A stretch of DNA of 56,795 nucleotides from Candidatus Mediterraneibacter pullicola (GTDB lineage Bacteria; Bacillota; Clostridia; Lachnospirales; Lachnospiraceae), in NCBI GenBank assembly GCA_019117065.1, contig DXAK01000001.1:1-56795 (forward strand), read 5' to 3'. The position numbers and the translations under genes were made by a program. Positions within the stretch are counted from its first letter, which is position 1. Each line of letters opens with the position of its first letter. Under the pieces are notes generated by a model that worked only from the letters and a program-made list of their open reading frames with translations, made no database searches and was not told the DNA's origin. This document shows, piece after piece, positions 39,086 to 53,047 of the stretch.

Positions 39086-40837
39086 ATGACCGACACAGAC
39101 TGCCGCTTCTTAGCACGACGCCGCGCTCTCAATATGGTATGGACCGCCGCCGGTGAATATGGGTTCGATCCAGTATTTCTGGCGTTTACGCAGGATGGGC
39201 TTCCAGACTTTTATCTCAATTCCATCATCGGATATGTACAGAAATGGTATGACCGTGATACCATGAACAGGCTATTCGACACAATCGGGAACACGGTTTT
39301 GAAAGAAACTCTGGACGGCCTGCTCTGGATCGGACTGGAGAACTGTTCCTTTTTAAGAGAAGTTCGGGAGCGCCCCGTCCTTTCTGAAATGCGCCGCGTC
39401 TGCGCAAAATCTTTTTTCAATCAGCAGCTCACTAAATCCCGCCAGCAGTGGATGTCTCAAAACAGCCTTGTCTACGCACTCCAATCTGCGCGCTGGCGGA
39501 CTGTGCTCGGAAAAGAACCCGGTCTTATCAATCCATGGGAGAAAAAACTCTTTGAAGAGCTGGCTTTTCGCGAGGCATGGGACGCAGACCAGATTACATC
39601 CCATGCCACAGACATATTCCGCCGCTATTTCCGCCTTGGGCAAAGCTCTCTTCCCCTCTCTCTTTTTGCAAAATTCCGCGGAAAAGCAGGCAGCCTCATA
39701 AAAAAAGGGCTTCCTCACCGCGTTATACGCGCAGAGGATCTCATATTTACCAGCGACAGTGCTGGAAATGGGATTATCACCCCGAGAAAAGCACGTACCT
39801 TCGGACCGATCTCGGCATTACAGGAAGAAAATGACCGTCTTTATATTGAAAGCTGCTTCGGTTTTCCCCTGTTCGGGTATGATGAAAATGCCCGGGCAGA
39901 AGAAGCATTCTGCACGGGACATCACCGGGAATGCCATCTGTATTTTGCATCCGGCCAGCGCGCCCCGCATACAGGGGACGATCCTCTTGTCTGGCGGATG
40001 GTTCGCGGCGCGCAGGTGCAGGCGGGCCGGAACCGTTCTCACTATCAGGACAAACTTCATTTCTATCAGAATAGTATTACAAGACTTGCGGAACAGATAC
40101 GCAATGCCCTGCTTGTATATCCGCAGCCCTCCCTCGTACGAAGCCGTTCCGGCGCCCTTGCCCCAGCAGAGATCTGGCGGGCTGTCTGGCTGGACGATGA
40201 ACGGATCTTCACCGAGACATTCCAAGAGGAACAGCCTGATTTCTCCGTGGATCTTATGCTGGACGCATCTGCTTCCCGGCTCCAGAATCAGGAAGTCATA
40301 GCCTCACAGGCATATGTTATTGCAAAGAGCCTACGCCTCTGCCATATCCCGGTGCAGATCTTTTCCTTCCTAAGCCTGAGAGGGTATACAGTCATGCGCC
40401 TCCATTGCGGATACAATGACAAAGATGAGGACAAAAAGATCTTCGACTACTTTGCCGCGGGATGGAACCGGGACGGTCTCGCTCTCCGGGCGGCACGCCG
40501 TCTGATGGAAGATTCCCCTGCAAAGAAACGCATCCTCATTGTGCTGACTGACGCAAGTCCCAACGACGACAGGCGGATGCCCTCTGACGTTCATGACAAG
40601 CACCGACTAAGCCGGAATTACTCTGGAGAAGCAGGCGTAGAAGACAGCTCTATGGAAGTACATTCTCTTCAGAAGTCTGGCATTCACGTCATGGCAGTCT
40701 TAAGCGGCGGGGACGGGGACAGACAGGCGGCGCAGAAGATCTACGGGGATGATTTTGTACGGATTGAAAATGTCAGAAATCTATCTGATGCTGTGGGAAG
40801 CCTCCTCCAGAAACAAATAGAAAAAATGCGGTCATAA
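39086..40837 (+). CDS. NorD/CobT-like VWA protein
   Basis: 583 residues. The N-terminal 370 residues are helical and basic. The C-terminal VWA domain has a MIDAS, DLMLDASASRLQNQEV (DxSxS), the Thr/Asp site around HCGYNDKDEDK and the LTDASPNDDRRMP loop. NorD-like proteins pair with NorQ/MoxR ATPases for metal insertion or activation of large enzymes. It begins 51 bp after the AAA+ gene and its stop lies inside the terminator hairpin. No obvious client enzyme is encoded nearby. Confidence 0.88.
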   Translation: MTDTDCRFLARRRALNMVWTAAGEYGFDPVFLAFTQDGLPDFYLNSIIGYVQKWYDRDTMNRLFDTIGNTVLKETLDGLLWIGLENCSFLREVRERPVLSEMRRVCAKSFFNQQLTKSRQQWMSQNSLVYALQSARWRTVLGKEPGLINPWEKKLFEELAFREAWDADQITSHATDIFRRYFRLGQSSLPLSLFAKFRGKAGSLIKKGLPHRVIRAEDLIFTSDSAGNGIITPRKARTFGPISALQEENDRLYIESCFGFPLFGYDENARAEEAFCTGHHRECHLYFASGQRAPHTGDDPLVWRMVRGAQVQAGRNRSHYQDKLHFYQNSITRLAEQIRNALLVYPQPSLVRSRSGALAPAEIWRAVWLDDERIFTETFQEEQPDFSVDLMLDASASRLQNQEVIASQAYVIAKSLRLCHIPVQIFSFLSLRGYTVMRLHCGYNDKDEDKKIFDYFAAGWNRDGLALRAARRLMEDSPAKKRILIVLTDASPNDDRRMPSDVHDKHRLSRNYSGEAGVEDSSMEVHSLQKSGIHVMAVLSGGDGDRQAAQKIYGDDFVRIENVRNLSDAVGSLLQKQIEKMRS

Positions 40838-40847
40838 CAGACCGCAT
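40826..40847 (+). terminator. Terminator overlapping the end of the NorD-like gene
   Basis: ATGCGGTC (40826-40833) and GACCGCAT (40840-40847) pair perfectly and the TAA stop is in the loop. Only a weak T-rich stretch follows. Confidence 0.6.
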
Positions 40848-40902
40848 TGCCGAATTATATTTTATATGAAAAATCTATTACCAGACGCCCCGTGTTTCCT
40901 CA

Positions 40903-41320: not shown

Positions 41321-42499
41321 TTATATCACTGGCCCAACACAGTGTATATCCATCGTACTCACATAGTGAATAGCTTCATTTTTTGTCATTTGCCCGTTCA
41401 AAACCCGGAGCAGCATCTCAAATGCCTCCTCCCCGACTTCCTCAATGCTTTTTTCTCCGATAATGATCCTTCCCGCATTTAAATCCATATCATACTTCAT
41501 TCTTGCATAAGTATTTGGATTTCCACAAATTTTAATAACAGGCATACTCGGAAAACCCTGCGGAGCCCCTCTCCCTGTAGAAAAGCACAAAAACTGCGCT
41601 CCTGTAGCAGCCATCCCAGTAAGAATTTCCGGTTCCCGCCCAGGGGCATCTTTGATCCAAAGACCTTTCTGGTCTGTAACCATATCCGGATATTCCAGTA
41701 TCCCCTGAATTGGACGATGACCGCTCTTAACAATGGCTCCCAGCGATTTTTCCTCTATACTGGAAAGCCCGCCCTTAATATTACCGGGAGTTGGCTGGCC
41801 GCCGCGCATATCCTCTCCAATAGTTTTTGCGCGGTTCTCCATGCGCTCTACGATTTCATAAATCTTTTTTCCTATTGGCCCTTCGGGGCCCCCAACTGCC
41901 CTCTGTGCAAGAATATGCTCTCCTCCAATAAATTCTGTGGTTTCACCAAATACTACTGTTGCTCCAAAATCCACCAATTTATCTGCCACATACCCGATCA
42001 CACAATTAGACGCCATACCACTTGTGGTGTCGGAAGCCCCGCATTTGATTCCCATAACCACATTAGAAATATCTACCGTTTCTCTTTGAAGCCCTGAAAT
42101 TTTCTGTGCCAGTGCCTGTGCCAAGTCTGTCCCCCTCTGAATTGCCCGGCTCATCCCGCCTAGTTCTTGGATCTCAATCAATTCCACTGGTTTTCCCGTA
42201 GAGGAAATCTCTTGATATAGCCTTTGGGTATCTGTTCCTTCACATCCCAAACTCACAATGAGAACAGCGCCTACATTAGGACTGCATCCCAAACTGATCA
42301 ATGTGTCCGTCACCCTTTTTAAATCTGTAGGAAGCTGACAGCATCCCTGATGATGGAAGAATCCAACTGTTCCTGCCACCTGACGGCAGATTGCCTGTGC
42401 TACATCTGTAGCACAAATAACACTGGGGATAACTCCAACAAAATTTCTGCTTCCAACTTTTCCATTTTCACGTACATAACCCTGAAATGTATATCTCAT
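41321..42499 (-). CDS. UxaA-family hydro-lyase, large subunit
   Basis: 392 residues. Family landmarks are GYVRENGKVGSRNFVGVIPSV, FFHHQGCCQL, SLGCEGTDT, GIKCGASDTTSG and FGETTEFIGGEH, as in the large subunit of altronate dehydratase and sulfolactate sulfo-lyase (SuyB). These enzymes, metal-dependent, remove water or sulfite from 2-hydroxy acids. The small SAF subunit is a separate gene, 21 bp upstream. It is the last gene of the ten-gene operon. Substrate unknown. Confidence 0.85.
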   Translation of the reverse strand: MRYTFQGYVRENGKVGSRNFVGVIPSVICATDVAQAICRQVAGTVGFFHHQGCCQLPTDLKRVTDTLISLGCSPNVGAVLIVSLGCEGTDTQRLYQEISSTGKPVELIEIQELGGMSRAIQRGTDLAQALAQKISGLQRETVDISNVVMGIKCGASDTTSGMASNCVIGYVADKLVDFGATVVFGETTEFIGGEHILAQRAVGGPEGPIGKKIYEIVERMENRAKTIGEDMRGGQPTPGNIKGGLSSIEEKSLGAIVKSGHRPIQGILEYPDMVTDQKGLWIKDAPGREPEILTGMAATGAQFLCFSTGRGAPQGFPSMPVIKICGNPNTYARMKYDMDLNAGRIIIGEKSIEEVGEEAFEMLLRVLNGQMTKNEAIHYVSTMDIHCVGPVI

Positions 42500-42520
42500 C
42501 TTCTCTTCCCCTTTTCTATG

Positions 42521-42817
42521 TTACAGATCTCCTCTTCCTCGCATAGCTTCCATATTATGAACGTGAACATAATCTCCTTTTTTAATATCTCTCACAGCAC
42601 GTCCTATGGATTCGCCATATTTTATAATAGGTTCACCGACTTGGATATCCCGAACCGCCACTTTATGCCCGTACGGAATGACTTCGGTCACAGACATCAT
42701 TTCCTCATATCCTGACCGGTCTTTTACTCTGACAGAAGTCCCCTTTGTAATACCGTCTGCGAAGATCGTCGCCACATTATCTTTCTCATCCACCTGCAAA
42801 GCTATATTTAACTCCAT
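42521..42817 (-). CDS. UxaA-family hydro-lyase, small (SAF) subunit
   Basis: 98 residues from the ATG at 42817, which has GGAGG 6 nt upstream; the ATG at 42829 is less well placed. The SAF domain is clear: YGHKVAVRDIQVGEPIIKYGESIG and a terminal VHVHNME. It pairs with the large subunit next to it, the same split arrangement as SuyA/SuyB or two-gene altronate dehydratases. It lies 19 bp after the LarA-like stop. Confidence 0.88.
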   Translation of the reverse strand: MELNIALQVDEKDNVATIFADGITKGTSVRVKDRSGYEEMMSVTEVIPYGHKVAVRDIQVGEPIIKYGESIGRAVRDIKKGDYVHVHNMEAMRGRGDL

Positions 42818-42836
42818 ATCGTCCTCCATTAGGTTT

Positions 42837-44120
42837 TTAACTACATGCTTTCACTGCTAATACCGACACTCCGTCTGGTATAACAACAACTCTTGAGTTT
42901 CTCCCTTTAATTTCATAAGCCATCCTCAGAGCCTCATCCAGATTGGACGCATGAAGCATGTTTGCTTTTTCCACCATTTTTTTATTTAGATAAGTAGTAA
43001 CCAGTATTACTGTATGTTTTTTTAAAATCCGCGCATAAATCTGGGCACACCATTGCTCTGCTATCGTTTCCTTTGGCGGTATCTTAGACAAATAGTCGTC
43101 AATTTCATCCACTGTCCCTTTGACAATCAACTTTTCAAAATAACTGCCTCCCATCCCATCAATACATGCGGCACACATAATAATTACCGCGCCCTCCTTA
43201 GCGCATGCTTCTGCTGTTGCCACTGCCTTGGGCGTCTGATACAAATTTTGGTCAAGTGGATATCCCCCATTAGATGTTATAACAATATCTCCTGCTACAG
43301 GATCGCATTGAGACAACCTTCTCACAAATGCCACGCCAGACTCATGAGCCTTTTTTAAATCTCCTGCAAAGGCGGCAATCACTTTTTTTTCCCCGTTAAG
43401 AGCCACGTTAAAAATGAACTGCACATTCACCATTCTGGCCGCATAGACCATATCTTCATGAACAGGATTATGTTCCAGCACTCCCGCCATCGCGTAAGGG
43501 CTGGAAATCGCTTTATATGAATGATTTTCATTTACCGTCACTTCATTACAAATTCCGGGGAGGATACTTTTACGCCCGCCGGAAAAACCTGCGAAAAAGT
43601 GTGGCTCAATAAACCCCTCCGTCACAAGTAAATCACACTCTGCTGCTAATTTATTAACATGGAAGTCCGCGCCTGAGGGAAGTGTACATATATACACAAA
43701 CTCTTCTGGACAAAAGGCGTTGTTTATGAAAATCTTTTCATTATCCACAATCTCATCACCAAACATTCTGCGCTGTTCCTCCTCGGTAGTAGCGCGGTGA
43801 AGCCCTGTTGCAATCAAAATGGTAATGTCTGCCTTCGGATTTCCTTTGCGGATTTCTGCCAGAAGAAACGGGAGCGTCAACTTACTTGGAACCGCCCTTG
43901 TGTGATCACTTGTAACTAAAACAACCCTTTTCTTCCCCCGCGCCAGCTCTGATAAGCGTGGCGTACCAATTGGATTTTCCAGAGCCTCTCGAATCAGCTC
44001 TTCCTCTGATTTTCCCGGATCATAACTATCGCTTTTAGCTGTAATAATTGCTTCCAGATTTTGTTCTTCCACGTGAAGATCCAGTGTTGACGTATGATAG
44101 GGTATCTTTATGGTTCTCAT
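42837..44120 (-). CDS. larA: LarA-family nickel-pincer racemase
   Basis: 427 residues from MRTIKIPYHT (ATG at 44120, GGGG upstream). With this start the residues match lactate racemase numbering exactly: D72, H73, R75 (SDHTRAVPS), H108 (GLHR), H174 (EPHFFAG), K184 (GGRK, covalent pincer site) and H200 (ENHS, nickel ligand). It should racemise or epimerise a 2-hydroxy acid. LarB, LarC and LarE, which make the cofactor, are not in the window. The substrate may be lactate or another hydroxy acid made in this operon. Confidence 0.9.
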   Translation of the reverse strand: MRTIKIPYHTSTLDLHVEEQNLEAIITAKSDSYDPGKSEEELIREALENPIGTPRLSELARGKKRVVLVTSDHTRAVPSKLTLPFLLAEIRKGNPKADITILIATGLHRATTEEEQRRMFGDEIVDNEKIFINNAFCPEEFVYICTLPSGADFHVNKLAAECDLLVTEGFIEPHFFAGFSGGRKSILPGICNEVTVNENHSYKAISSPYAMAGVLEHNPVHEDMVYAARMVNVQFIFNVALNGEKKVIAAFAGDLKKAHESGVAFVRRLSQCDPVAGDIVITSNGGYPLDQNLYQTPKAVATAEACAKEGAVIIMCAACIDGMGGSYFEKLIVKGTVDEIDDYLSKIPPKETIAEQWCAQIYARILKKHTVILVTTYLNKKMVEKANMLHASNLDEALRMAYEIKGRNSRVVVIPDGVSVLAVKACS

Positions 44121-44198
44121 GCTTCCCCTTTCCGATGGAAACGTTTTTACAAAATCTAATGTCCTCTTTTGTTTTCCACCCTTCACTTCTGCTTTTCC

Positions 44199-45521
44199 TC
44201 ATTTTGCCGCATTTGCCGCAATCTGTACTGCATCCCACACTCCTGCAAACATAGGAGCATAACCCAAATCCAGATATCCCACTTCCTCTGTTGTCATCCC
44301 GCGGTCTATAGCGCAGGCAAAAATATCAATCCTCCAAGCAGCCTCTTTCTCCCCCATAACCTGCGCACCTAAAATCACATGATCTTCCTCTCGGTATACA
44401 AGTTTGATCGTGATGATACAAGGATCCGGATAATATCTTGCATGGCTCCTTGCCTCTACAGTTTTTACCTTATATGACAGCCCTTCCCGATGAGCCTCCT
44501 CTTCAGAAAATCCTGTTTTTGCTAGTTCCAATCCCATGCAGCGCAGCATAGAAGTCCCAAGAGCCCGGTCAAAGCAAACAGCTTTTCCAAGTACGCTATC
44601 TCCTGCAAGCCTTCCCTGCTTGTTCGCATTCGTTCCCAAGGCAATATAAACAGGATTTTTAGTCAGACGATGCTGGACTGTTGCACAATCTCCCACGGCA
44701 AATATATCTTTTATAGAAGTTCTCATCGCCGCGTCTGTAATAATCGCACCATTTGAGAGTTTCTTAAGCCCTTTGACAAATCCCGTATTTGGCGTCACCC
44801 CAATAGACAGAATTATCATATCTGCCTCATAACACCCCCGGTCTGTAATAATCTCTGTAACTTGACCATCTATTCCTTTGAAACGCTGTACACGCTCTCC
44901 TGTCTGCACAGACGCTCCATGCTTTTCCAATTCCGCTTGCACAGCATGTCCAAATTCCTTGTCAAAAGTATTCAGAACTCTATCCATAGCTTCTATGATT
45001 CGTATAGATTTTGCTTTCTGTAAAATGCAGGCCTCTGCAATTTCCAAACCAATATAGCCGCCTCCTACAATAACAACGTTTCCCCGGCATTGCACAAGTT
45101 TTTCTTTTATCCGTTCTGCATCCTGCAAAGTCTTGAGACAAAAAATTCCTCCGAGCTCTATCCCTGGAAATGGTGGTTTTTTCGGAGATGCTCCGGTAGC
45201 TATAATAAGCCGGTCATATGAAAACTCTTTTTCCTGTTCTCCTTCCACGGCACGCACACATTTTTTCTCATGATCAATTTCCAGCGCTTCACACCCCAAA
45301 TGGATACATAATCCCATTTTCTCAAACTCCGAGACCCTTCGAATGCGAATCTTATCCAAATCCTCGTTTAATCCCGCCACATAATAAGGCAGTCCACAAG
45401 CCCCATATGATACTTCCCAACTTTTTTCAAGCACTACAACCTCTGTATCCGGGGCCTTACGCTTAATGCGGGAAGCTGCGCTCATGCCTGCAGGATTTCC
45501 ACCCAGAATTAAAACCTTCAC
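44199..45521 (-). CDS. FAD-dependent NAD(P)H oxidase/CoA-disulfide reductase-like flavoprotein
   Basis: 440 residues; start is GTG at 45521 with AGGAGG upstream. An N-terminal FAD-binding Rossmann motif is LILGGNPAGMSAASRIK. The redox-active Cys is C42 in SYGACGLPYY, as in the CoA-disulfide reductase and Nox family. A second Rossmann motif is VIVGGGYIGLEIAEA, and the FAD-end motif FAVGDCATV. A dimerization domain follows (about 320-440). In this operon it could reduce a CoA-disulfide or a pathway intermediate; it is 78 bp from the LarA-like gene. Confidence 0.9.
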   Translation of the reverse strand: MKVLILGGNPAGMSAASRIKRKAPDTEVVVLEKSWEVSYGACGLPYYVAGLNEDLDKIRIRRVSEFEKMGLCIHLGCEALEIDHEKKCVRAVEGEQEKEFSYDRLIIATGASPKKPPFPGIELGGIFCLKTLQDAERIKEKLVQCRGNVVIVGGGYIGLEIAEACILQKAKSIRIIEAMDRVLNTFDKEFGHAVQAELEKHGASVQTGERVQRFKGIDGQVTEIITDRGCYEADMIILSIGVTPNTGFVKGLKKLSNGAIITDAAMRTSIKDIFAVGDCATVQHRLTKNPVYIALGTNANKQGRLAGDSVLGKAVCFDRALGTSMLRCMGLELAKTGFSEEEAHREGLSYKVKTVEARSHARYYPDPCIITIKLVYREEDHVILGAQVMGEKEAAWRIDIFACAIDRGMTTEEVGYLDLGYAPMFAGVWDAVQIAANAAK

Positions 45522-45537
45522 GAATATCTCCTCCTAT

Positions 45538-45936
45538 TCATCGCGTCAATTCAAATACAGGTTTTGAGTATCCTTCACAGTCCAGCCACTTTAAATGTAC
45601 TTTAGCACCACATCGCGGATTTCTTGACTTTATACTTATCAAGTTAGACACCAGACGGATACCCCCCTCTAAATCAACTTCGCAGACAATATAAGGGATT
45701 TCCTCAGCAAGCGATGGATGAAAATTTTTCTGAAATACAGTAAAAGAATACAATGTTCCTTCTCCTGACAATTCTACTAGTTCTGTCTCTTCACTCATAC
45801 AATTCGGGCAGAGATATCCCGCTGGCCAACGTAGTTTTCCGCATTTTTTACATTTTTGCACGAGTAGCCGGTGCTCTGCGCAGCCCTCCCAAAATCTTTT
45901 TGTATCCGCACTAATCCTTGGCGCAAAAAATCCCAT
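45538..45936 (-). CDS. DUF35 OB-fold/zinc-ribbon protein, partner of the thiolase-like gene
   Basis: 132 residues. An N-terminal zinc-ribbon (VQKCKKCGKLRWPAGYLCPNC) and a C-terminal OB-fold (YSFTVFQKNFHP, EDLEGGIRLVSN) make the DUF35/OB_aCoA type. Such proteins bind acyl-CoA and pair with thiolase-fold enzymes; in archaeal HMG-CoA synthesis they hold thiolase and synthase together, and in ChsH2-Ltp2 they support the aldolase. Only 4 bp separate it from the thiolase-like gene. Confidence 0.9.
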   Translation of the reverse strand: MGFFAPRISADTKRFWEGCAEHRLLVQKCKKCGKLRWPAGYLCPNCMSEETELVELSGEGTLYSFTVFQKNFHPSLAEEIPYIVCEVDLEGGIRLVSNLISIKSRNPRCGAKVHLKWLDCEGYSKPVFELTR

Positions 45937-45940
45937 TGTC

Positions 45941-47125
45941 TCACATCCTTTCCAGTATCAAAGAAACATGGCTCTGGAAAACACCGCCATTGTCGCTACA
46001 CATAATCAATTCCGGTCTCTTTGTTCCCGGATATCGCCCAAGCTGGCGCTTCCCGCAGCGGTCCATAAGCTGCATTACACCTTCACTCACTGGAGTTAAT
46101 CCCATAAAATAAGCTTCTGAAAGCATTCCCCCGGAAGTATTGACTGGGAATTCCCCGCCTGGTCCTAAACGTTCCTTCGTTAAGAATTCCCCTGCATCAT
46201 TACCTTTAAAAAAGCCATAGTCTCTCAGCGTTGCCTCAACGGTATAAGTAAAACAGTCATATATCTCACAGGCATCTATATCTCCATGATTTACTCCTGC
46301 CATCTCAAATGCCTGATGACTAGAACGAGCTGCCGCAGAATCACTATCTTCTGCATTGATCCGATAGGGAGATACTGGTTGATTTGCACTGCCAAATCCA
46401 CGAATTGTCACAACCGGATGGCGATTCAATTTTTTTGCCCGCTCCGCTGTTGTCAGCACAATCGCCCTCCCACCGTCAGTATTTGGCGTCGCATCCAGAA
46501 GTCGTAAGGGCTCTGTCACCATGCCGGATCCATAATACCCTTCTTCATCCAATATTTTTTTGTTCATCGCGGCAATTGGATTTAAATTTGCCCACCGCCT
46601 TTGAGCAATGGCAATCTCTTTCCACACTTCCGGGCCAGTCGCATAAAGGCTCATTGCCTTCTGTGCCAGCATAGAGTATTTAGCCATTGTACTTAGATCA
46701 CCGTACGCTGCCAATTCATCTGTAGCCTCTCCTTTATTTAGTTCTTTTACAAAACTTCTTCTTGCACTTCTGGCATTGTCCCCATAAGAAAGCACTACAT
46801 ACTTGACTATTCCGCTTGCCAAGAGTCCTATACTATAATAAAGCCAGCTCCTTGTACAGTATGTCTCCTGGCTGACAACCTCGGGCCGGATTCCCAATTG
46901 TTCCGCCACAGTAAAGGCAGTTACATCATAATCCCCTCCAATGGCATCAAAATGCCTGTAAAGAAGGAGGGCATCAACATCCTTCTTGTCGATGCCCGCA
47001 TCTTCTATGGCATTGCGCACTGCCTCACAATGGAAACTTACAGCTGTCCTCCCGGGTACTTTCCCTTGTTCAGTATATCCAATTCCAGCAATAGCGATTT
47101 TATTTTTCAGTTCTTCAAATGCCAT
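45941..47125 (-). CDS. Thiolase-fold protein, possibly an Ltp2-like retro-aldolase
   Basis: 394 residues, an SCP2/lipid-transfer type thiolase fold (KIAIAGIGYTEQGKVPGRTA at the start). The canonical thiolase nucleophile region is unlike CxSG; a Cys is at 90 in ETYCTRSWLYY. The two catalytic His positions are replaced by Tyr: Y289 in EIYDCFT and Y339 in SGGMLSEAYFMG. As I recall, the steroid aldolase Ltp2 uses Tyr294 and Tyr344, the same 50-residue spacing, so a retro-aldol cleaving role is plausible. It is encoded 4 bp from its DUF35 partner. A true thiolase role is less likely. The ATG at 47125 has AGGAGG upstream. Confidence 0.82.
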   Translation of the reverse strand: MAFEELKNKIAIAGIGYTEQGKVPGRTAVSFHCEAVRNAIEDAGIDKKDVDALLLYRHFDAIGGDYDVTAFTVAEQLGIRPEVVSQETYCTRSWLYYSIGLLASGIVKYVVLSYGDNARSARRSFVKELNKGEATDELAAYGDLSTMAKYSMLAQKAMSLYATGPEVWKEIAIAQRRWANLNPIAAMNKKILDEEGYYGSGMVTEPLRLLDATPNTDGGRAIVLTTAERAKKLNRHPVVTIRGFGSANQPVSPYRINAEDSDSAAARSSHQAFEMAGVNHGDIDACEIYDCFTYTVEATLRDYGFFKGNDAGEFLTKERLGPGGEFPVNTSGGMLSEAYFMGLTPVSEGVMQLMDRCGKRQLGRYPGTKRPELIMCSDNGGVFQSHVSLILERM

Positions 47126-47137
47126 GGAAATTTCCTC

Positions 47138-48511
47138 CTATAATGCCCATACTTCTTCGAATGGAGGCATAGTACAGTCATGGTAGTACGCCAACTTTGT
47201 CACATTCATTAAATGCTTGTACGTCAAATTTTCAGAAATAGAGTTATTTCCCCAGCTTCCGCAACCTAGTGACATAGTCGGATGTAACCCGTTGATATAG
47301 TTCCCGCCAGATGCGGCGCCACCAGCTTGATTTACTAAGATTCTTCCCACTGGAAGTTCAGCGCCTGCATATTCCGCTTTCTTCTCATCATCTGTATATA
47401 CCACAGAAGTGTGGCCTGCGCCTTCCCACAACAAGTTTTGTTTCGCCGCGGCTACTCCCTCCTCAAAACTGTTATAGGGGAATAACTGTACCACCGGGCA
47501 AAGTTTTTCTCTGCGAAGCTGATTATCTTTTCCCATACCTCTGCTATTAAAAATCAAAATCTGCGTATCTTCTGGTACAGTAAATCCCAGCGCCCGCGCA
47601 AGCAGTGCAGGTTTCATCCCCACATATTCCGGGTTGATTGCCCCATTTTCCTTAAAAAGCAGTCCGGCAAGTCCAGCCGCCTTATCATCCGGAATCATCG
47701 CTGCCTTTTCTTTGAGAAACGCTTGTACTATCTTATCTTGATCTTCCTTCGGAAAGTGCAGCGCTTGCTCTCCAGTACAAGGGATCCCATTATCATAGGC
47801 GCGGCTTCCCACCACTGTTGCCGCCACTTTATCGTAGTCCTTATAATCATCTGCAACTATTACCTGCACATTCCCTTGTCCAACCCCAAATGATGGACGT
47901 CCGCTGGAATATGCGGATTTTACCATGGACGCGCCTCCAGTTGCCACAATCACATCGGATTTCTTCATCAGTTCTTGCGTCTTATCAAGACTTGGCTCTG
48001 TGATTATCTGAATCAAATTTTCTGGCGCCTTCACTTTTTCAAGCGCAGCGTTAATCAGACTTACACCATGAACCGTTACATTTTTTGCACCCGGATGGGG
48101 AGATACAATTACGGCATTGCGGCATTTAATAATATTCATGACATTACTTGCCACTGTCGAAGTCGGATTTGTACTTGGTGCAAGACATGCCACAACCCCT
48201 ACTGGTTTGGCAAATGTAACAACTCCGTTTATTGTATCATTATCGATAATTCCGACAGATTTCTTATCCCGAAGATAGTACCATGCCGCTGCGGTAGCCT
48301 TCTGTTGCTTATAAATCTTACTGTCCACTCGTCCATAATGTGTTTCTGATACCGCCTCTTCAGCAAGTATTTCTGCATTATCAAAAATTGTTTTTCCCAC
48401 TATCTTAACAAGTGCATCTACCTGTTCCTGCGTATAAGTTTCCATAACCGACTGAGCAGCTTTTGCTTTCTCCAACATTTCGTCAATTTGTGTTCTGTCT
48501 TCCATTTTCAC
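47138..48511 (-). CDS. CoA-acylating aldehyde dehydrogenase
   Basis: 457 residues. NAD-binding and CoA-binding features include GVVACLAPSTNPTS, VSPHPGA and VIVATGGASMVKSAYSSGRPSFGVGQGN. The catalytic Cys is C245 in DNGIPCTGEQ. It resembles the AdhE N-terminal domain, EutE and sulfoacetaldehyde dehydrogenase types, which turn an aldehyde plus CoA and NAD into acyl-CoA. It is adjacent to the thiolase-like gene (12 bp), which fits capture of an aldehyde from carbon-carbon cleavage. The aldehyde's identity is unknown. Confidence 0.9.
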   Translation of the reverse strand: MKMEDRTQIDEMLEKAKAAQSVMETYTQEQVDALVKIVGKTIFDNAEILAEEAVSETHYGRVDSKIYKQQKATAAAWYYLRDKKSVGIIDNDTINGVVTFAKPVGVVACLAPSTNPTSTVASNVMNIIKCRNAVIVSPHPGAKNVTVHGVSLINAALEKVKAPENLIQIITEPSLDKTQELMKKSDVIVATGGASMVKSAYSSGRPSFGVGQGNVQVIVADDYKDYDKVAATVVGSRAYDNGIPCTGEQALHFPKEDQDKIVQAFLKEKAAMIPDDKAAGLAGLLFKENGAINPEYVGMKPALLARALGFTVPEDTQILIFNSRGMGKDNQLRREKLCPVVQLFPYNSFEEGVAAAKQNLLWEGAGHTSVVYTDDEKKAEYAGAELPVGRILVNQAGGAASGGNYINGLHPTMSLGCGSWGNNSISENLTYKHLMNVTKLAYYHDCTMPPFEEVWAL

Positions 48512-48531
48512 TTCTCCTTTTTTGCTGCGGG

Positions 48532-49290
48532 CTATCTTTTGGATGTCGGCATGCGTGTTATTTTATGTATCACCATCCACTTTTCATTGATTTTTGCAAA
48601 GGATAAATAATCGTGGAAAAAATCCCACCTTTTTGCGTCCATGACCTGAACAACTGCCAAATTGTTAGAAAGCATACGTATATTTTCCACATTACCGTAT
48701 TTGCTTATCCCACTCTCTGACGCCGGGCAGAGGCCTTTCCACCGTTCTCCAAAAACTGTACATGGAAAATCAGCTAAATTCCCGTCCTTATCTGTGCTGA
48801 GCATCCTTGCATGTTCTTCAAATACACTCAATGCCAACGAACTATCCAATGTATAGATTCCTTCAATATAGGTATCGATTGCTTTTATAATATTGGACAG
48901 TTCTTTTGTTTGTTCTTCTATTGAAGAGAACCAGTTATTCAATGGATCTTCGCTCTCTGACACCATACTTAAAACAATCATCCAGCGTTCCTGATCCTTC
49001 ACAAGCCCCAAAACATTTGTTACAAACCTCTTGTCCCTTTCATATGAAACAAGTGCATACGCCATTGTTTCTGTCTCTGCATTCACACTTGTAGTCGAAA
49101 AATCGTGGATATCTGTTTCTTGCATCTGAGAAATATACGCTCTCAAAGGTTCTGTACACAGATGTCCTTTCAACATCTGTATGAAAACTGCATCCTTATA
49201 GATATACTCTTTATAATTATCCGTATATCCAAGCAGCAAGTCTTCATAAGCTTTAAGCACATCGTTTATACTGTTTATCCTATTCTCCAT
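48532..49290 (-). CDS. Tandem NTF2-like (SnoaL/lumazine-binding-like) protein
   Basis: 252 residues. Two NTF2-like alpha+beta units can be seen. The first is about 1-118 (YEDLLLGYTDNYKEYIYKDAVFIQML and beyond), the second about 130-252 (IIKAIDTYIEGIYTLDSSLALSVFEEHARMLSTD, then a final VIHKITR strand). The second resembles the putative lumazine-binding group. Such folds act as isomerases, cyclases or dehydratases or simply bind ligands; I cannot tell which. It is in the middle of the operon, 14 bp from the M20 gene. Confidence 0.78.
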   Translation of the reverse strand: MENRINSINDVLKAYEDLLLGYTDNYKEYIYKDAVFIQMLKGHLCTEPLRAYISQMQETDIHDFSTTSVNAETETMAYALVSYERDKRFVTNVLGLVKDQERWMIVLSMVSESEDPLNNWFSSIEEQTKELSNIIKAIDTYIEGIYTLDSSLALSVFEEHARMLSTDKDGNLADFPCTVFGERWKGLCPASESGISKYGNVENIRMLSNNLAVVQVMDAKRWDFFHDYLSFAKINEKWMVIHKITRMPTSKR

Positions 49291-49304
49291 AGCAATCTGC
49301 TCCT

Positions 49305-50573
49305 TTAATTATTTTCTAGGTACCCCAGCGCAAATACTGTATGTGCTTTTACTCCGTTTACAAGCGCCTTTTCATTGAGAACGAAATTGTCAGAATGAAT
49401 ACCGGGCACTTCCTCCTGGATTCCATCATCGGGTGCTACGCTAAGTGCAGCGTACAGACATGGAATAGTGTTGGAAAATTGTCCAAAATCATCCGGTGAA
49501 CCAAAGGCGCGTGAAGGATCGACTTTTACATTCTCTTCCCCTAAAATTTCCTTAAAACACGGTGTTATATGTTCTACTAGCTCAAAATCATTTTTATTGT
49601 TAGGGATATGCATATCCCATTGCACCTCTGCCTTCACGCCGGACGCTTTCGCACACCCTTCTGCGACTTCAATAATGCGCCCCTCCAGAAGATCTTTTGT
49701 CGAATAATCGGTAAAACGGCATGCTCCGGATATGAAAGATTCTTCTGCCATCACGTTATATCTAACTCCGCCTGCCATTTGTCCGCATGTCAAGATGATA
49801 GGGTTTGTTTTAGGATTCACATTCTGAGTAGTAATTGCCTGTAATCCCAACAAAGTCTGCGCCGTAGGTATCAGCACTTCTGCCCCTGTCCACGGCAGGG
49901 AGCCATGAGCTCCAACTCCTTTAAAGCGAATCGTAAACATCGTACATGCCATACAGGTAATTCCACCAACATATCCCAACTGACCAGCCGAACCAATTGG
50001 AGCCTTAGGATCTACATGCATACCAAACATTGCTTTTGGCATTAAACTTTGGAATTGCTCCTCTTCCAAATATTTTTTCGCCCCATAACTTCCTTGCAGC
50101 CCCGGTGATGGCCCTTCTTCCGAAGGCTGAAATACCAAAAGTACACTTCCTTTTATATATTTACGCAATTTCACCAGCACTGAAGCGCTTCCAAGAAGCA
50201 TTGCAACATGAGCGTCGTGTCCGCAGGCATGCATCACAGGTACCTCTTTTCCTCCCCACTGCGCAGTTTCTCTGGAGGCAAACGGCAATTCTGTATTTTC
50301 TTTGATAACAAGCGCATCCATATCTGCGCGCAGCCCGACAATAGGACCATCCTGTTCTCCGCGGATTACACCAAGGACACCTGTTCCCCCTGCCTGTCCT
50401 TCATAAATCTCATCCACTCCGATATCTCTTAGGACCTTAACTATAAGCTCCGCTGTCCTAAACTCCTGATTCGCAAGTTCCGGATATTCATGAATTTTTC
50501 TACGCCACTGAATTACTTGTTCTGATATTTCATCGCTATATTTCTTTATTGTTTCATATATTTGCGTATCCAT
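49305..50573 (-). CDS. M20-family amidohydrolase
   Basis: 422 residues. Metal-binding motifs are VMHACGHDAHVAMLLGSA (His and Asp ligands) and FQPSEEGPSPGL (Glu base and ligand). The catalytic/dimer domain is about 190-310 and the last metal His is in the C-terminal part (PGIHSDNFVLNEKAL). Relatives hydrolyse N-acyl amino acids, hippurate or peptides. No signal peptide is visible, so it is cytoplasmic and acts on imported substrate. It follows the permease gene by 48 bp, which suggests deconjugation as an early step. Confidence 0.9.
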   Translation of the reverse strand: MDTQIYETIKKYSDEISEQVIQWRRKIHEYPELANQEFRTAELIVKVLRDIGVDEIYEGQAGGTGVLGVIRGEQDGPIVGLRADMDALVIKENTELPFASRETAQWGGKEVPVMHACGHDAHVAMLLGSASVLVKLRKYIKGSVLLVFQPSEEGPSPGLQGSYGAKKYLEEEQFQSLMPKAMFGMHVDPKAPIGSAGQLGYVGGITCMACTMFTIRFKGVGAHGSLPWTGAEVLIPTAQTLLGLQAITTQNVNPKTNPIILTCGQMAGGVRYNVMAEESFISGACRFTDYSTKDLLEGRIIEVAEGCAKASGVKAEVQWDMHIPNNKNDFELVEHITPCFKEILGEENVKVDPSRAFGSPDDFGQFSNTIPCLYAALSVAPDDGIQEEVPGIHSDNFVLNEKALVNGVKAHTVFALGYLENN

Positions 50574-50621
50574 AGTCTACCTCACCAAAAATGTATTTTA
50601 CCATCCCACAGATTACTCTTT

Positions 50622-51794
50622 TTAGATCAATGCTCCAATGACAGATCCAACCACTACAGAACCAATGGTAAATACTGCGAAACCTCCAACTACCATCTGA
50701 GGCATCAGGAAATTCTCTAATGCCGCTTGATCCTCGTCGTTTTGCGCCACTTCTGCGGCAACTTCTTTTGAAATCGTCATAGTCGGAGGGAATCCAAACA
50801 ATCCTGATAAACCAATTGCGGTACACATGCCAAAGCCAGTTTTAAATATTTTATTCATGATAAATCCATTTAAGATAACTGCCATGATTCCTAGTACAAA
50901 TACTACAATGAGCGGAACAGCTAACGAAAAGATCATTTCCTGAGTCGCCCCGGCCATACTTCCAAAGATTGCGATTGTCATTGCAAGTATTACGAAGCCA
51001 TCTGCATTGGCTTTCCCCAAGAAGCCCTTTTCAAGAAAACCAAGTTCTTGGAAAAGAAGGCCTAAAAGGAGGCAAACCAGCATCGTTGGCCCCCATGAGC
51101 CCAAAATTGAGTTAATAAAATATCCTAAAGAAGTCACTAAGCATCCTTTTAGAAGGATAATCTGAGGAGTCTGAAGTCTCTTAGGCAGAGGCGGAAACAA
51201 TTTTTTCCGTCCTTCTGTCCCTTCATCCTGACTCACACGGAATTTTTCAATTTCCCCCGTTTTCATGACTCTTCTCGCCTCTTTTTTACAGATAACAGAT
51301 GCGATTGGTATTCCAATCAGATACTGCAGCATAATGATGACTGTGCAAAAAATTGAATAAGTATTGTACATTGTATCCTGCGGATCAATACCTGCCAAAA
51401 CTGCCTGCATAGCTCCAATGCCTCCGGCAACCACTGGCGCACCGACAAATGCCATATTCCTGTCAATCACAAGCGCACCAAGCCCGCATATAATTACTCC
51501 CATGAGCGCAGCTGCACAAAAGCCGGTAATTACCGTCCGCCACTGCCGCTTCATTTCATCAAGCGGGATCGACGCTCCCATATTTACCATCACTAGTCCT
51601 ATTGTCAAATTATAAATTTCATTTGCGCCCGATGCAGAGATTAGGTCACTTGGAAATCCAAGCCATGTAAAACCGACCAGAAAAATAAATCCCCCGACAA
51701 ACATCATGGATAGCAATGCCTTTGTTTTTACTGCAAGCCAATCACCGATGGCCAAAATGCCACAACAAATTGTAAAAGTTAATACTGCCCACAT
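50622..51794 (-). CDS. Multi-pass transporter, GltS-like
   Basis: 390 residues from the ATG at 51794 (MWAVLTFTICCGI; GGAG 9 nt upstream; the upstream 40 codons lack a start site). About 10-11 hydrophobic segments, with Gly-rich helices such as GAPVVAGGIGAMQAV and SMAGATQEM in pseudo-repeat positions. The shape resembles sodium/dicarboxylate or glutamate symporters such as GltS, but family membership is not certain. First gene of the operon, so it should import the substrate of the pathway, probably an acid or N-acyl acid. Confidence 0.75.
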   Translation of the reverse strand: MWAVLTFTICCGILAIGDWLAVKTKALLSMMFVGGFIFLVGFTWLGFPSDLISASGANEIYNLTIGLVMVNMGASIPLDEMKRQWRTVITGFCAAALMGVIICGLGALVIDRNMAFVGAPVVAGGIGAMQAVLAGIDPQDTMYNTYSIFCTVIIMLQYLIGIPIASVICKKEARRVMKTGEIEKFRVSQDEGTEGRKKLFPPLPKRLQTPQIILLKGCLVTSLGYFINSILGSWGPTMLVCLLLGLLFQELGFLEKGFLGKANADGFVILAMTIAIFGSMAGATQEMIFSLAVPLIVVFVLGIMAVILNGFIMNKIFKTGFGMCTAIGLSGLFGFPPTMTISKEVAAEVAQNDEDQAALENFLMPQMVVGGFAVFTIGSVVVGSVIGALI

Positions 51795-51841
51795 AATTAC
51801 ATCTCCTTTTCCTTTTTGTTTTATATTGATATTGAAGGCTT

Positions 51842-51853
51842 GGCGGGCCCGCC
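51842..51853. promoter_or_regulatory. Palindrome in the divergent promoter region
   Basis: GGCGGGCCCGCC is a perfect 12-bp palindrome between the permease and regulator starts. It could be an operator for the CdaR-type regulator or part of a leader hairpin. Confidence 0.45.
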
Positions 51854-51879
51854 TTATCTGCCTACAATAAGCAACCCTG

Positions 51880-51908
51880 TTGACAGGACTTCTGGTGTAT
51901 AGTAAACT
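51880..51908 (+). promoter_or_regulatory. Promoter of the CdaR-type regulator gene
   Basis: TTGACA (51880-51885), 17 nt, then TAAACT (51903-51908), about 30 bp upstream of the start codon. GAGGAGG lies between the promoter and the ATG. Confidence 0.6.
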
Positions 51909-51937
51909 AACCAAAAATATGAGGAGGTACTTATAAT

Positions 51938-53047
51938 ATGTTTGAAAAATATTTCCAAATCATAATTGACGAAATTTCCAAACTAGTCACTGCAGACATC
52001 TGTTTCATTGACTGCTCCGGACATATTTTAAAAAGTTCACAGCCATCCCGCATTGGCCAATTCCATCCTTACGCAAAAAAACTCGTTGATGAAAATCTTG
52101 ATCAGCTGGCAGTTGATCAAGACGATCCTGTAGCTGGAATAAAAAGGGGCGTTCACTCCGCCGTCCATCTCGATGGTCAAATAATCGGCGTTATTGGAAT
52201 TACTGGCGCACCAAATGAAATCCTGCTTTTCTCAAAGGCTATCTGTGTCCTATCAGAACTAATGCTTAAAAATCTCCTGTCAAATGAGCAAGAGAATATT
52301 TTGACCCAAGCAAGAGGGATTTTTTTCCAAGAATGTCTGCTGCACAATTCACATATATCCCAAGAACAATATCTGTCACAAGGAACAACTCTCGGACTAG
52401 ATATGCGTATCCCACGTTTTATTATTGTCATCCGGCTATTCAACTTACCCGCACAGCATAACCTGCTTCTTTCAAATATCGTTTCCCACTGCAACAATTT
52501 GAATACTAAACATATGGTAGGAAGCATTACCTTTCTTAAAGGGGAAGATATTATCTGTTTCCAGCCTTGTGCAGATCCTGACGAAATCCCTGCACATACC
52601 TCCTTTCTGAAAAGCCAAATAGAAGATAAATTCAACATAAAAACATTTATTGGCTGTAGTAATCCCTATACTGAGGTAAGTATAATTCCCACTCTTTACG
52701 AGACAGCCTGTGTCCTCGCAGAAATAAGCAAAAACTCCCACGGGCAAATCATTCAACAGAATCATCTTTTTCCTGAAGCGCTTATCAAGAGTCTGTCAAA
52801 AAGTATGCGTCAGGAGTTTCATAATGAAGTCTTTCAAAACTGCACAGAGCAGGAAATAAAAAATTATACACAGCTTCTCAAAGACTACTTTGAATGCAGC
52901 GGCTCTATCAAAGATATTTCAGAAAAGCGTTATGTTCACAAAAATACTATCCAGTACCAGCTAACGAAAATTCATCATCAGACTGGTTATAATCCAAGAA
53001 ATATGAAAGATGCCTTTTGCCTGTATTTAGCAATTTTGTCAAAATAG
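51938..53047 (+). CDS. CdaR/PucR-type transcriptional activator
   Basis: 369 residues. An N-terminal sugar-diacid recognition-like domain (1-115: YFQIIIDEISKLVTADICFIDCSGHILKSSQPSRIG) and a middle GGDEF-like/linker region (115-300) are followed by a PucR C-terminal HTH_30 (about 305-365: LKDYFECSGSIKDISEKRYVHKNTIQYQLTKIHH). CdaR activates sugar-acid catabolic genes in response to the diacid. It is divergent from the ten-gene operon and almost certainly regulates it. The ligand is probably an acid of this pathway. Confidence 0.9.
   Translation: MFEKYFQIIIDEISKLVTADICFIDCSGHILKSSQPSRIGQFHPYAKKLVDENLDQLAVDQDDPVAGIKRGVHSAVHLDGQIIGVIGITGAPNEILLFSKAICVLSELMLKNLLSNEQENILTQARGIFFQECLLHNSHISQEQYLSQGTTLGLDMRIPRFIIVIRLFNLPAQHNLLLSNIVSHCNNLNTKHMVGSITFLKGEDIICFQPCADPDEIPAHTSFLKSQIEDKFNIKTFIGCSNPYTEVSIIPTLYETACVLAEISKNSHGQIIQQNHLFPEALIKSLSKSMRQEFHNEVFQNCTEQEIKNYTQLLKDYFECSGSIKDISEKRYVHKNTIQYQLTKIHHQTGYNPRNMKDAFCLYLAILSK

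Follow-up and report, generated by a model that had tools for sequence, protein, structure and literature searches.

We analyzed a stretch of 56,795 nucleotides (hereafter the window; positions 1 to 56,795 of the forward strand of contig DXAK01000001.1) from assembly GCA_019117065.1 of Candidatus Mediterraneibacter pullicola, which comprises 2.25 Mb in 49 contigs with a completeness of 94.3%. In this window, we found an operon of ten genes with a divergent CdaR-type regulator, and we propose with moderate confidence that it is a catabolic operon of three modules. The first module would take up and unmask the substrate, the second would carry out an aldol cleavage of an acyl-CoA, and the third would consist of a racemase (LarA) and a dehydratase (UxaA). 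The proposal draws on the gene set, the conservation of gene order in a second genome, the active-site residues, and the co-occurrence of LarA with UxaA. A sequence-only reading of the window had recognized no pathway here, and in the open-access literature searched we likewise found no described system with this gene set.

Organization of the operon

The ten open reading frames (ORFs) lie on the minus strand from 51914 to 41321, all in the same direction, with gaps of 4-48 nt, and the regulator faces them (Table 1). This confirms the arrangement that the sequence-only reading had described. The operon is not a chance arrangement, because seven of its ten genes are found again, with order and orientation kept, on an 18.8 kb contig of an uncultured Clostridia metagenome-assembled genome (locus L002). 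The names given earlier to nine of the ten proteins were borne out by Pfam matches and by an NCBIfam search; the exception is the transporter, which has no family and whose structure model resembles CitS. Most of the starts are preceded by a purine-rich, Shine-Dalgarno-like stretch. The carrier probably starts at ATG 51794, with AAGGAG upstream, and not at TTG 51914. LarA probably begins at the internal ATG ending at 44120, and with this start the gap between LarA and the flavoprotein is 78 nt.

The regulator carries both Diacid_rec and HTH_30, the domain pair of the CdaR sugar-diacid regulators, and scores 87 bits against the CdaR model PRK11477, far under the cut-off of 612. An inverted-repeat search of the divergent region returned a single 9-nt pair, which is unconvincing as an operator.

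Table 1. Positions in the window of the operon genes, the regulator, and the flanking signals
Feature	Position	Strand	Basis
CdaR/PucR-type regulator, divergent	51938..53047	+	Diacid_rec 89.7 bits, HTH_30, GGDEF_2
Divergent intergenic region, 143 nt	51795..51937		Promoter-like site for regulator at 51880-51908
Membrane carrier, CitS-like fold	50622..51794	-	Structure model, Foldseek
M20 N-acyl amidohydrolase	49305..50573	-	TIGR01891 261 bits, cut-off 154
Tandem SnoaL/NTF2-like protein	48532..49290	-	Two Lumazine_bd_2 halves
CoA-acylating aldehyde dehydrogenase, SucD-like	47138..48511	-	Aldedh; PDB 8cei best
Thiolase-fold acyl-CoA aldolase candidate (Y289, D290, C291, Y339)	45941..47125	-	Alignments, profile, Foldseek; Pfam thiolase C-domain
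DUF35 partner, zinc ribbon and OB fold	45538..45936	-	Pfam/NCBIfam
CoA-disulfide-reductase-type flavoprotein	44199..45521	-	PRK09564 465 bits, cut-off 458
LarA-type 2-hydroxy-acid racemase, Cys subtype	42837..44120 (ORF open to 44186)	-	LarA 588.6 bits, cut-off 460
UxaA small subunit, SAF domain	42521..42829	-	Pfam
UxaA large subunit, GD_AH second and C-terminal domains	41321..42499	-	Pfam; GarD alignment; tree
Terminator-like stem and T run, 3′ of operon	40825..40848	-	Consensus match only

Conserved core and modularity

The seven genes kept in L002 form what we call the core. They encode the aldehyde dehydrogenase (ALDH), the thiolase-fold protein, the DUF35 protein, the flavoprotein, LarA, and the small (UxaA-N) and large (UxaA-C) subunits of UxaA, with identities of 69%, 74%, 63%, 70%, 78%, 63%, and 86%, respectively. 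In L002 the core is surrounded by a TctABC-type transporter, in place of the CitS-like carrier, and an IclR-type regulator (both by eye). In addition, an RraA-like protein and two 2-hydroxyacid dehydrogenases were found there by family search.

To estimate the distribution of the thiolase-fold protein, we searched with six short peptide patterns, which miss distant relatives, and obtained 67 loci besides the window copy (68 in total). In the other loci, mostly of Deltaproteobacteria, Desulfurella, and Dehalococcoidia, the thiolase-DUF35 pair is present but the remaining core genes are not. Three loci (L039, L040, and L044) have a UxaA pair of 38-43% identity within 10 kb of it, and three others (L024, L038, and L046) have a flavoprotein relative of 32-34% identity. 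Beyond the pair itself, the best conserved neighbor among the 67 loci, an enoyl-CoA-hydratase-like gene (by eye), was present in 7, and there was no shared context. Searches for the thiolase-fold protein in the order (295 genomes, E 1e-60) and in the genus (58 genomes, E 1e-20) gave no copy other than that of the window. Meanwhile, LarA and the two UxaA genes (the triad) occur without the other core genes in stretches from eight other genomes.

These results showed that the operon is modular and that its ten genes are not one evolutionary unit. The sequence-only reading had treated the genes as one set. This holds for the seven-gene core in L002, whereas the thiolase-DUF35 pair, the triad, and the carrier with M20 also occur separately. 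A different phylogenetic spread of the genes had been named beforehand as a result that would speak against one pathway, and that result was partly obtained.

The thiolase-fold protein as a candidate aldolase

The gene for the DUF35 protein lies at most 400 nt from the thiolase-fold gene in 65 of the 68 loci, the window copy included. We aligned 38 of the thiolase-fold sequences, namely the window copy and those of 37 further loci. The remaining 30 of the 67 loci were left out, because no ORF was called there or its length fell outside 351-429 aa. Y289, D290, and C291 do not vary in this alignment, and Y339 is present in 32 of the 38; the exceptions are six distant gammaproteobacterial rows (L063-L068). 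According to PMC12329534, the catalytic residues are Tyr302 and Cys304 (motif YDCY) in Sal, and Tyr294 and Tyr344 in Ltp2. Y289 aligns with the Tyr of both enzymes, C291 with Cys304 of Sal, and Y339 with Tyr344 of Ltp2, the last correspondence being counted from the alignment ends. At both Tyr positions (289 and 339), the thiolases 7yvy and 6esq have His.

A profile built from 17 of the 38 sequences gave the highest score to 4u4e (267 bits), followed by Ltp2 (210 bits), Sal (200 bits), and the thiolases 7yvy and 6esq (145 and 140 bits). A Foldseek search with the structure model put 4u4e, Ltp2, and Sal at its top in the same order. The model has a mean pLDDT of 75 and a weak stretch (332-338) adjoining Y339, and thus it was used for the fold only.

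We therefore find in the window protein the features of the Sal/Ltp2 aldolases as to the fold, the DUF35 partner, the Tyr base in a YDxF/Y motif, and a second catalytic residue (C291 in 38 of 38, Y339 in 32 of 38), although 6esq too has Cys at position 291. A complex with a hydratase through DUF35, as in those systems, was not found: there is no MaoC domain among the ten proteins (Pfam), and for this reason we class the pair as working like the steroid aldolases and not as a member of their group. On the residues and the fold, the DUF35/thiolase pair is a candidate retro-aldol acyl-CoA aldolase. A carbon-carbon cleavage had been expected in the sequence-only reading; the aldolase step is kept, and the DUF35/thiolase pair itself is now its candidate.

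Some of our results count against an aldolase. The top-ranked structure, 4u4e ("thiolase," uncharacterized), carries Tyr at position 289, Ser at 291, and His at 339. The residue aligned with the thiolase nucleophile, C90, is conserved in 24 of the 38 sequences. Furthermore, the operon has neither a CoA ligase or CoA-transferase to form a 3-hydroxyacyl-CoA (Pfam, ten proteins) nor the MaoC hydratase of the steroid systems. The kept C90 and the Cys at 291 of 6esq would suit a true Claisen thiolase in a route like beta-oxidation, splitting a 3-oxoacyl-CoA with CoA into two acyl-CoA. So would the neighborhood of the pair in Desulfurella, with genes resembling those for succinyl-CoA ligase, electron transfer flavoprotein (ETF), acyl-CoA dehydrogenase, enoyl hydratase, and 3-hydroxyacyl-CoA dehydrogenase (by eye). 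Nevertheless, we consider a Claisen thiolase unlikely. Tyr stands at both catalytic His positions of the thiolases, at 289 without exception, and the adjoining acylating aldehyde dehydrogenase suits aldol cleavage. The Desulfurella acetivorans pair (L009:9986-11563), near these butyrate-oxidation-like genes, has aldolase-type residues itself.

Aldehyde dehydrogenase and flavoprotein

For the ALDH, the best match among solved structures was 8cei, an acetylating succinate-semialdehyde dehydrogenase, with 458 bits over the full length; other chains reached at most 296 bits. We take 8cei to be the enzyme named SucD. The NCBIfam models AdhE (405 bits), SauS (382 bits), and acetylating acetaldehyde dehydrogenase (368 bits) all scored under their cut-offs. 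The substrate is likely a semialdehyde with an acid group, because the enzyme is nearest to 8cei, and this agrees with the carboxylate-type carriers in the genomes of the window and of L002.

The flavoprotein passes the cut-off of PRK09564 and stays under those of TIGR03385 (401 vs 579 bits) and PRK13512. Its best solved structure is 3cgb (331 bits), with which the region of the active-site Cys aligns and is kept.

The LarA-UxaA triad

The window LarA retains Arg75, Lys184, and His200, which bind the nickel-pincer nucleotide (NPN), and the catalytic His108 and His174 (roles as given in section 6 of PMC11770544), and it belongs to the LarA superfamily. As reported in PMC11770544, lactate racemases usually have F, F, W, and E/Q at positions 175, 176, 358, and 359. 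The window LarA has F, F, W, and C. This rule is not strict, since LarA1 has T and LarAH42 has C at the last position.

In our sample of 391 genomes of the class, 57 had LarA over the cut-off, with 59 matches in all: 9 in triads, the 30 best-scoring other loci, which we examined, and 20 unexamined. With L002 there are ten triad genomes. All ten UxaA-linked LarA proteins retain the cofactor-binding and catalytic residues and have F, F, W, and C at the specificity positions and Ala after Arg75, while the 30 other loci all have F, F, W, and E, Q, or T, and Pro after Arg75. No UxaA was found in those 30 loci within about 1.5 kb on each side. Furthermore, the ten UxaA-linked LarA proteins formed a single clade (support 100/100).

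The same linkage was seen from the side of UxaA, which has the SAF and GD_AH domains of the UxaA/GarD family. Its large subunit had a match of E 1e-100 or better in 17 of the 391 genomes. Among the ten best (window included), LarA stands beside UxaA-N/UxaA-C in nine, with 1.6 kb between them in L092, and not in L095. Of the other seven, two (L097 and L098) were checked and had no LarA match; the remaining five were outside the check. The large subunits of the triad genomes, L095, and a Sporomusa plasmid protein formed one clade (12 rows, 100/99). This large-subunit tree has unsettled bootstrap values and long branches that meet, so that we relied only on its LarA-linked clade and on pairwise identities; a partial GarD row was excluded, and row L086, with a branch length of 10 and no BLAST match to the window protein, is probably in the wrong frame. 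Taken together, LarA and UxaA are a co-inherited unit in ten genomes.

The neighbors of the triad do not converge on one substrate. In L091 they are a GntP permease, 2-hydroxy-3-oxopropionate reductase, and glycerate 2-kinase (family search). The reductase (under cut-off) and glycerate 2-kinase recur in L092 (family search), and L088 and L089 are partly alike (by eye). In L093 the triad stands beside malic enzyme, a Lyase_1 protein, and MmgE/PrpD (family search), and likewise in L094 (by eye). In L090 it is beside an AEC-like permease alone (by eye), with the other modules absent; thus, the triad can be a self-contained step.

Two contexts deserve mention in their own right. In L093 (8401-16646) and L094, the triad is also beside a fumarase-like gene (by eye) and a Tct-like transporter, and the Lyase_1 protein of L093 scored 524 bits as ADSL-like and 516 bits with the XcbD model, both under cut-off. 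This context looks like the cleavage of a fumarate adduct. L095 (198-19496), read by eye, has the UxaA pair without Cys-type LarA, two PanB-like genes, and genes resembling those for ketopantoate reductase, formate-tetrahydrofolate (THF) ligase, 2-oxoacid oxidoreductase, and a branched-chain-type ABC transporter; a distant Lar_N protein was found there by family search. It is possibly a fermentation of a hydroxy acid with release of C1 units.

Candidate substrates of the triad

For LarAH42 of Enterocloster asparagiformis, PMC11770544 gives kcat/KM values of 610 for 2-hydroxybutyrate, 200 for lactate, 12 for glycerate, and 3-5 M-1 s-1 for hydroxylated C4 acids. These activities may be low because, in that text, the cofactor loading was not established. 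We considered glycerate as the substrate of LarA and UxaA, as genes for glycerate 2-kinase and tartronate-semialdehyde reductase accompany the triad in some genomes; LarAH42, with the same Cys, is feeble on it (12 M-1 s-1, Table 2 of PMC11770544), and we keep glycerate as a possible candidate. C6 aldarates were put aside, as F, F, and W mark the short-chain lactate-racemase group in PMC11770544. Threonate and erythronate, suggested by the L095 context, were put aside on the drop of LarAH42 to 3-5 M-1 s-1 on hydroxylated C4 acids. We infer that the real substrate of the Cys-type LarA is a short 3-substituted lactate, which would then be opened by UxaA.

The sequence-only reading had offered a sulfonate as an alternative substrate, because the two-subunit UxaA type includes sulfolactate sulfo-lyase. 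In such a pathway, UxaA would be that sulfo-lyase, LarA a sulfolactate racemase, and the ALDH an acylating sulfoacetaldehyde dehydrogenase. The two-subunit type of UxaA and the 382 bits of the SauS model on the ALDH would fit this, and known sulfolactate clusters have a two-enzyme racemase (PMC12421959). However, the UxaA large subunit is 38.6% identical to the UxaA beside hpsN/hpsO of Cupriavidus pinatubonensis and separate from it in the tree, so that it lies outside the SuyB lineage as represented by this one reference row in a tree of unsettled bootstrap. By comparison, it shares 49-52% identity with the UxaA proteins at L079-L083, five others from the class, and 58-86% with members of the LarA-linked group. 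In addition, the ALDH is under the SauS cut-off of 600 and nearer to SucD, and there is no Lys or Arg at the specificity positions of LarA. The sulfite-reductase domain PF01077 was not found in the genome (11 of 14 known genomes in a control have it; sulfite export was outside the search). The sulfonate proposal is thus weakened, and we judge it very improbable.

Nickel-pincer cofactor

LarA may be inactive unless its cofactor is scavenged, because the NPN pathway that goes with lactate racemases was not found in this genome; this is a point against the three-module reading. In the 94.3% complete genome, there was no match to LarC, matches to LarE reached at most 27 bits (cut-off 150), and LarB had one partial match of 55 bits (cut-off 175). 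Such partial LarB matches (positions 73-208) are taken for PurE-type proteins, because genomes with full LarB can have them as well, as a second copy.

LarB, LarC, and LarE are all over cut-off in three of the ten triad genomes (G083, G041, and G724, the last being the L002 genome). G585 has a 48-bit fragment of LarC, and neither LarB nor LarE is over cut-off there. Five others (G626, G708, G373, G406, and G593), with a completeness of 98-100%, lack any LarC match, and in none of them is LarB or LarE over cut-off. Among the 57 genomes of the class with LarA over cut-off, 24 have no LarC match at E 1e-8, fragments being counted as present; the same is true of 11 of the 35 whose completeness is at least 95%. 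Outside the triad genomes, LarE was not over cut-off in the only genome tested (G665), and LarB was not in the only three tested (G656, G717, and G366), which have no LarC. LarA without the pathway is therefore not special to the Cys type. The converse, LarBCE without LarA, is reported in PMC11796402.

The simplest explanation is that the cofactor is scavenged. Alternatives are a diverged pathway and assembly gaps, and a gap weighs most for the genome of the window, since one missing stretch could hold larB, larC, and larE together.

Uptake genes and the unity of the operon

The carrier has no Pfam match even at E 1 and no NCBIfam family. Its structure model (pLDDT 82.8) was closest to CitS in Foldseek (E 5e-5, TM about 0.6, 15-18% identity). 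The likeness to the 2-hydroxycarboxylate transporters is one of fold, with no match to the family at the level of sequence. On the model, the carrier is probably a carboxylate symporter. The best structure matches of the M20 protein were YxeP (171 bits), an IAA-amino acid hydrolase homologue (165 bits), an M20 peptidase (130 bits), and an N-acyl-glutamine aminoacylase (118 bits). In the SnoaL-like protein, the C-terminal Lumazine_bd_2 half scored 44.5 bits and the N-terminal half 19.2 bits, under the cut-off of 22.1.

Relatives of the carrier numbered 21 (27-36% identity), 19 of them with a locus for inspection. An M20 gene was present in 15 of the 19 loci, several being cut by the locus end; thus, carrier and M20 are a cassette of their own. 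This linkage and the relatives of M20 support uptake and deacylation of an N-acyl compound as a putative function.

It is possible, though we doubt it, that the operon is a mosaic, in which the carrier, M20, and SnoaL-like proteins serve one compound and the seven core genes another, with a common promoter and no common pathway. No relative of the carrier, the M20 protein, the SnoaL-like protein, or CdaR turned up on the L002 contig (18.8 kb), and none of the carrier loci has a core gene within the 4 kb examined. Against the three-module reading also stand the finding of the complete core in only two genomes (window and L002) and the lack of a minus-strand promoter-like site in 51795-51937 in a promoter scan that is weak, with 32 sites in the window vs 26.3 expected. 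On the other hand, the first four genes (carrier, M20, SnoaL-like, ALDH) are separated by only 48, 14, and 20 nt and face one divergent regulator, and L002 too has its own carboxylate-type carrier ahead of the core.

Proposed pathway

Returning to the three-module operon, we infer the reactions, their order, and the substrate as follows. In the first module, the CitS-fold carrier would import an N-acyl or conjugated acid, which the M20 amidohydrolase would split; the SnoaL-like protein is given no step. In the second module, the thiolase-fold and DUF35 proteins would cleave a 3-hydroxyacyl-CoA by a retro-aldol reaction into an acyl-CoA and an aldehyde. The SucD-like dehydrogenase would convert the aldehyde, probably acid-bearing, into an acyl-CoA with formation of NADH, and the flavoprotein may keep thiols reduced or recycle NADH. 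Equally possibly, the dehydrogenase acts first and provides the CoA thioester, which would account for the lack of a CoA ligase. In the third module, the Cys-type LarA would interconvert a short 3-substituted lactate (C3-C4) between its C2 epimers. From this lactate, the two-subunit UxaA would eliminate the C3 group, giving a 2-oxo acid for central metabolism. ATP could be gained from acyl-CoA by general enzymes encoded elsewhere. Most components of the catabolic logic drawn in the sequence-only reading are retained, namely carboxylate-type uptake, an M20 N-acyl amidohydrolase, a carbon-carbon cleaving enzyme, a CoA-acylating ALDH, a 2-hydroxy-acid racemase, and a UxaA lyase; the order of its steps stays conjectural.

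More tentatively, the operon may represent an undescribed anaerobic route. In this route, a non-steroidal aldolase of the Sal/Ltp2 fold and a SucD-like dehydrogenase would together yield two acyl-CoA from one 3-hydroxyacyl-CoA, with no beta-ketothiolase involved. This part would be linked to a LarA subtype, co-evolved with UxaA, that serves to open a 3-substituted lactate in both enantiomeric forms, the lactate being one that is not among the listed substrates of LarA. The nickel-pincer cofactor would come from neighbors, as the host cannot make it.

Our results suggest that DUF35-dependent acyl-CoA aldolases might be general tools of anaerobic carbon metabolism beyond steroid breakdown. In addition, the UxaA partner together with one residue change offers a concrete handle on the substrate of a LarA subtype. 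The results also raise the question of how LarA enzymes obtain the NPN in genomes without the known pathway.

Other features of the window

A large ORF resembling a serine recombinase (by eye) occupies 215-2170 at the start of the window. The last 115 or so residues encoded by this ORF can be aligned with the C-terminal end of another ORF, at 12762-14438, which reads by eye as a TrmA/RlmD-like methyltransferase (BLOSUM62 score 315). This looks like a mobile element inserted in the 3′ part of the methyltransferase gene, with the old tail now fused to the recombinase. At the other end (55134-56708), a Heparinase II/III-like ORF (Hepar_II_III_C 69 bits) adjoins a LacI-type regulator. A tRNA scan found none, and a search of the genome for the SGL family gave no match.

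Comparison with known systems

The window pair shares the thiolase fold and the adjoining DUF35 gene with Sal-Shy(DUF35) and Ltp2-ChsH2(DUF35) (PDB 9myr and 6ok1). It also shares the Tyr base in the YDxF/Y motif and the second catalytic residue (Cys in Sal, Tyr344 in Ltp2). However, the window protein is only 27-29% identical to them, its DUF35 is free-standing and not fused to a hydratase domain, and the pair has no steroid genes around it and is partnered by an acylating aldehyde dehydrogenase. The nearest characterized aldolase relatives act on steroids, which would suggest degradation of the side chain of a bile acid or steroid amide, M20 deconjugating it and the Sal-like aldolase trimming it. 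Given the low identity, an operon without hydratase, acyl-CoA dehydrogenase, and CoA ligase, and the lack of a known role for LarA and UxaA there, we find this scarcely credible.

The ALDH has the acylating succinate-semialdehyde dehydrogenase 8cei as its best solved-structure match, whereas 4-hydroxybutyrate genes are absent from the operon. The carrier shares its predicted fold with the sodium/citrate symporter CitS, but at only 15-18% identity and with no Pfam family detected.

Meanwhile, the window LarA resembles LarAH42 of the lactate racemase group in the Cys at the T359 position (C357 of LarAH42 as reported in PMC11770544). LarAH42 is weak on all the substrates reported in that text. 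UxaA shares the SAF small subunit and GD_AH large subunit with the UxaA/GarD dehydratases and SuyAB, and its large subunit aligns with GarD (6u7l) over residues 3-371. Unlike those enzymes, it falls into a clade of its own with LarA-linked relatives, being 38.6% identical to the SuyB-type protein and 30% to UxaA of E. coli.

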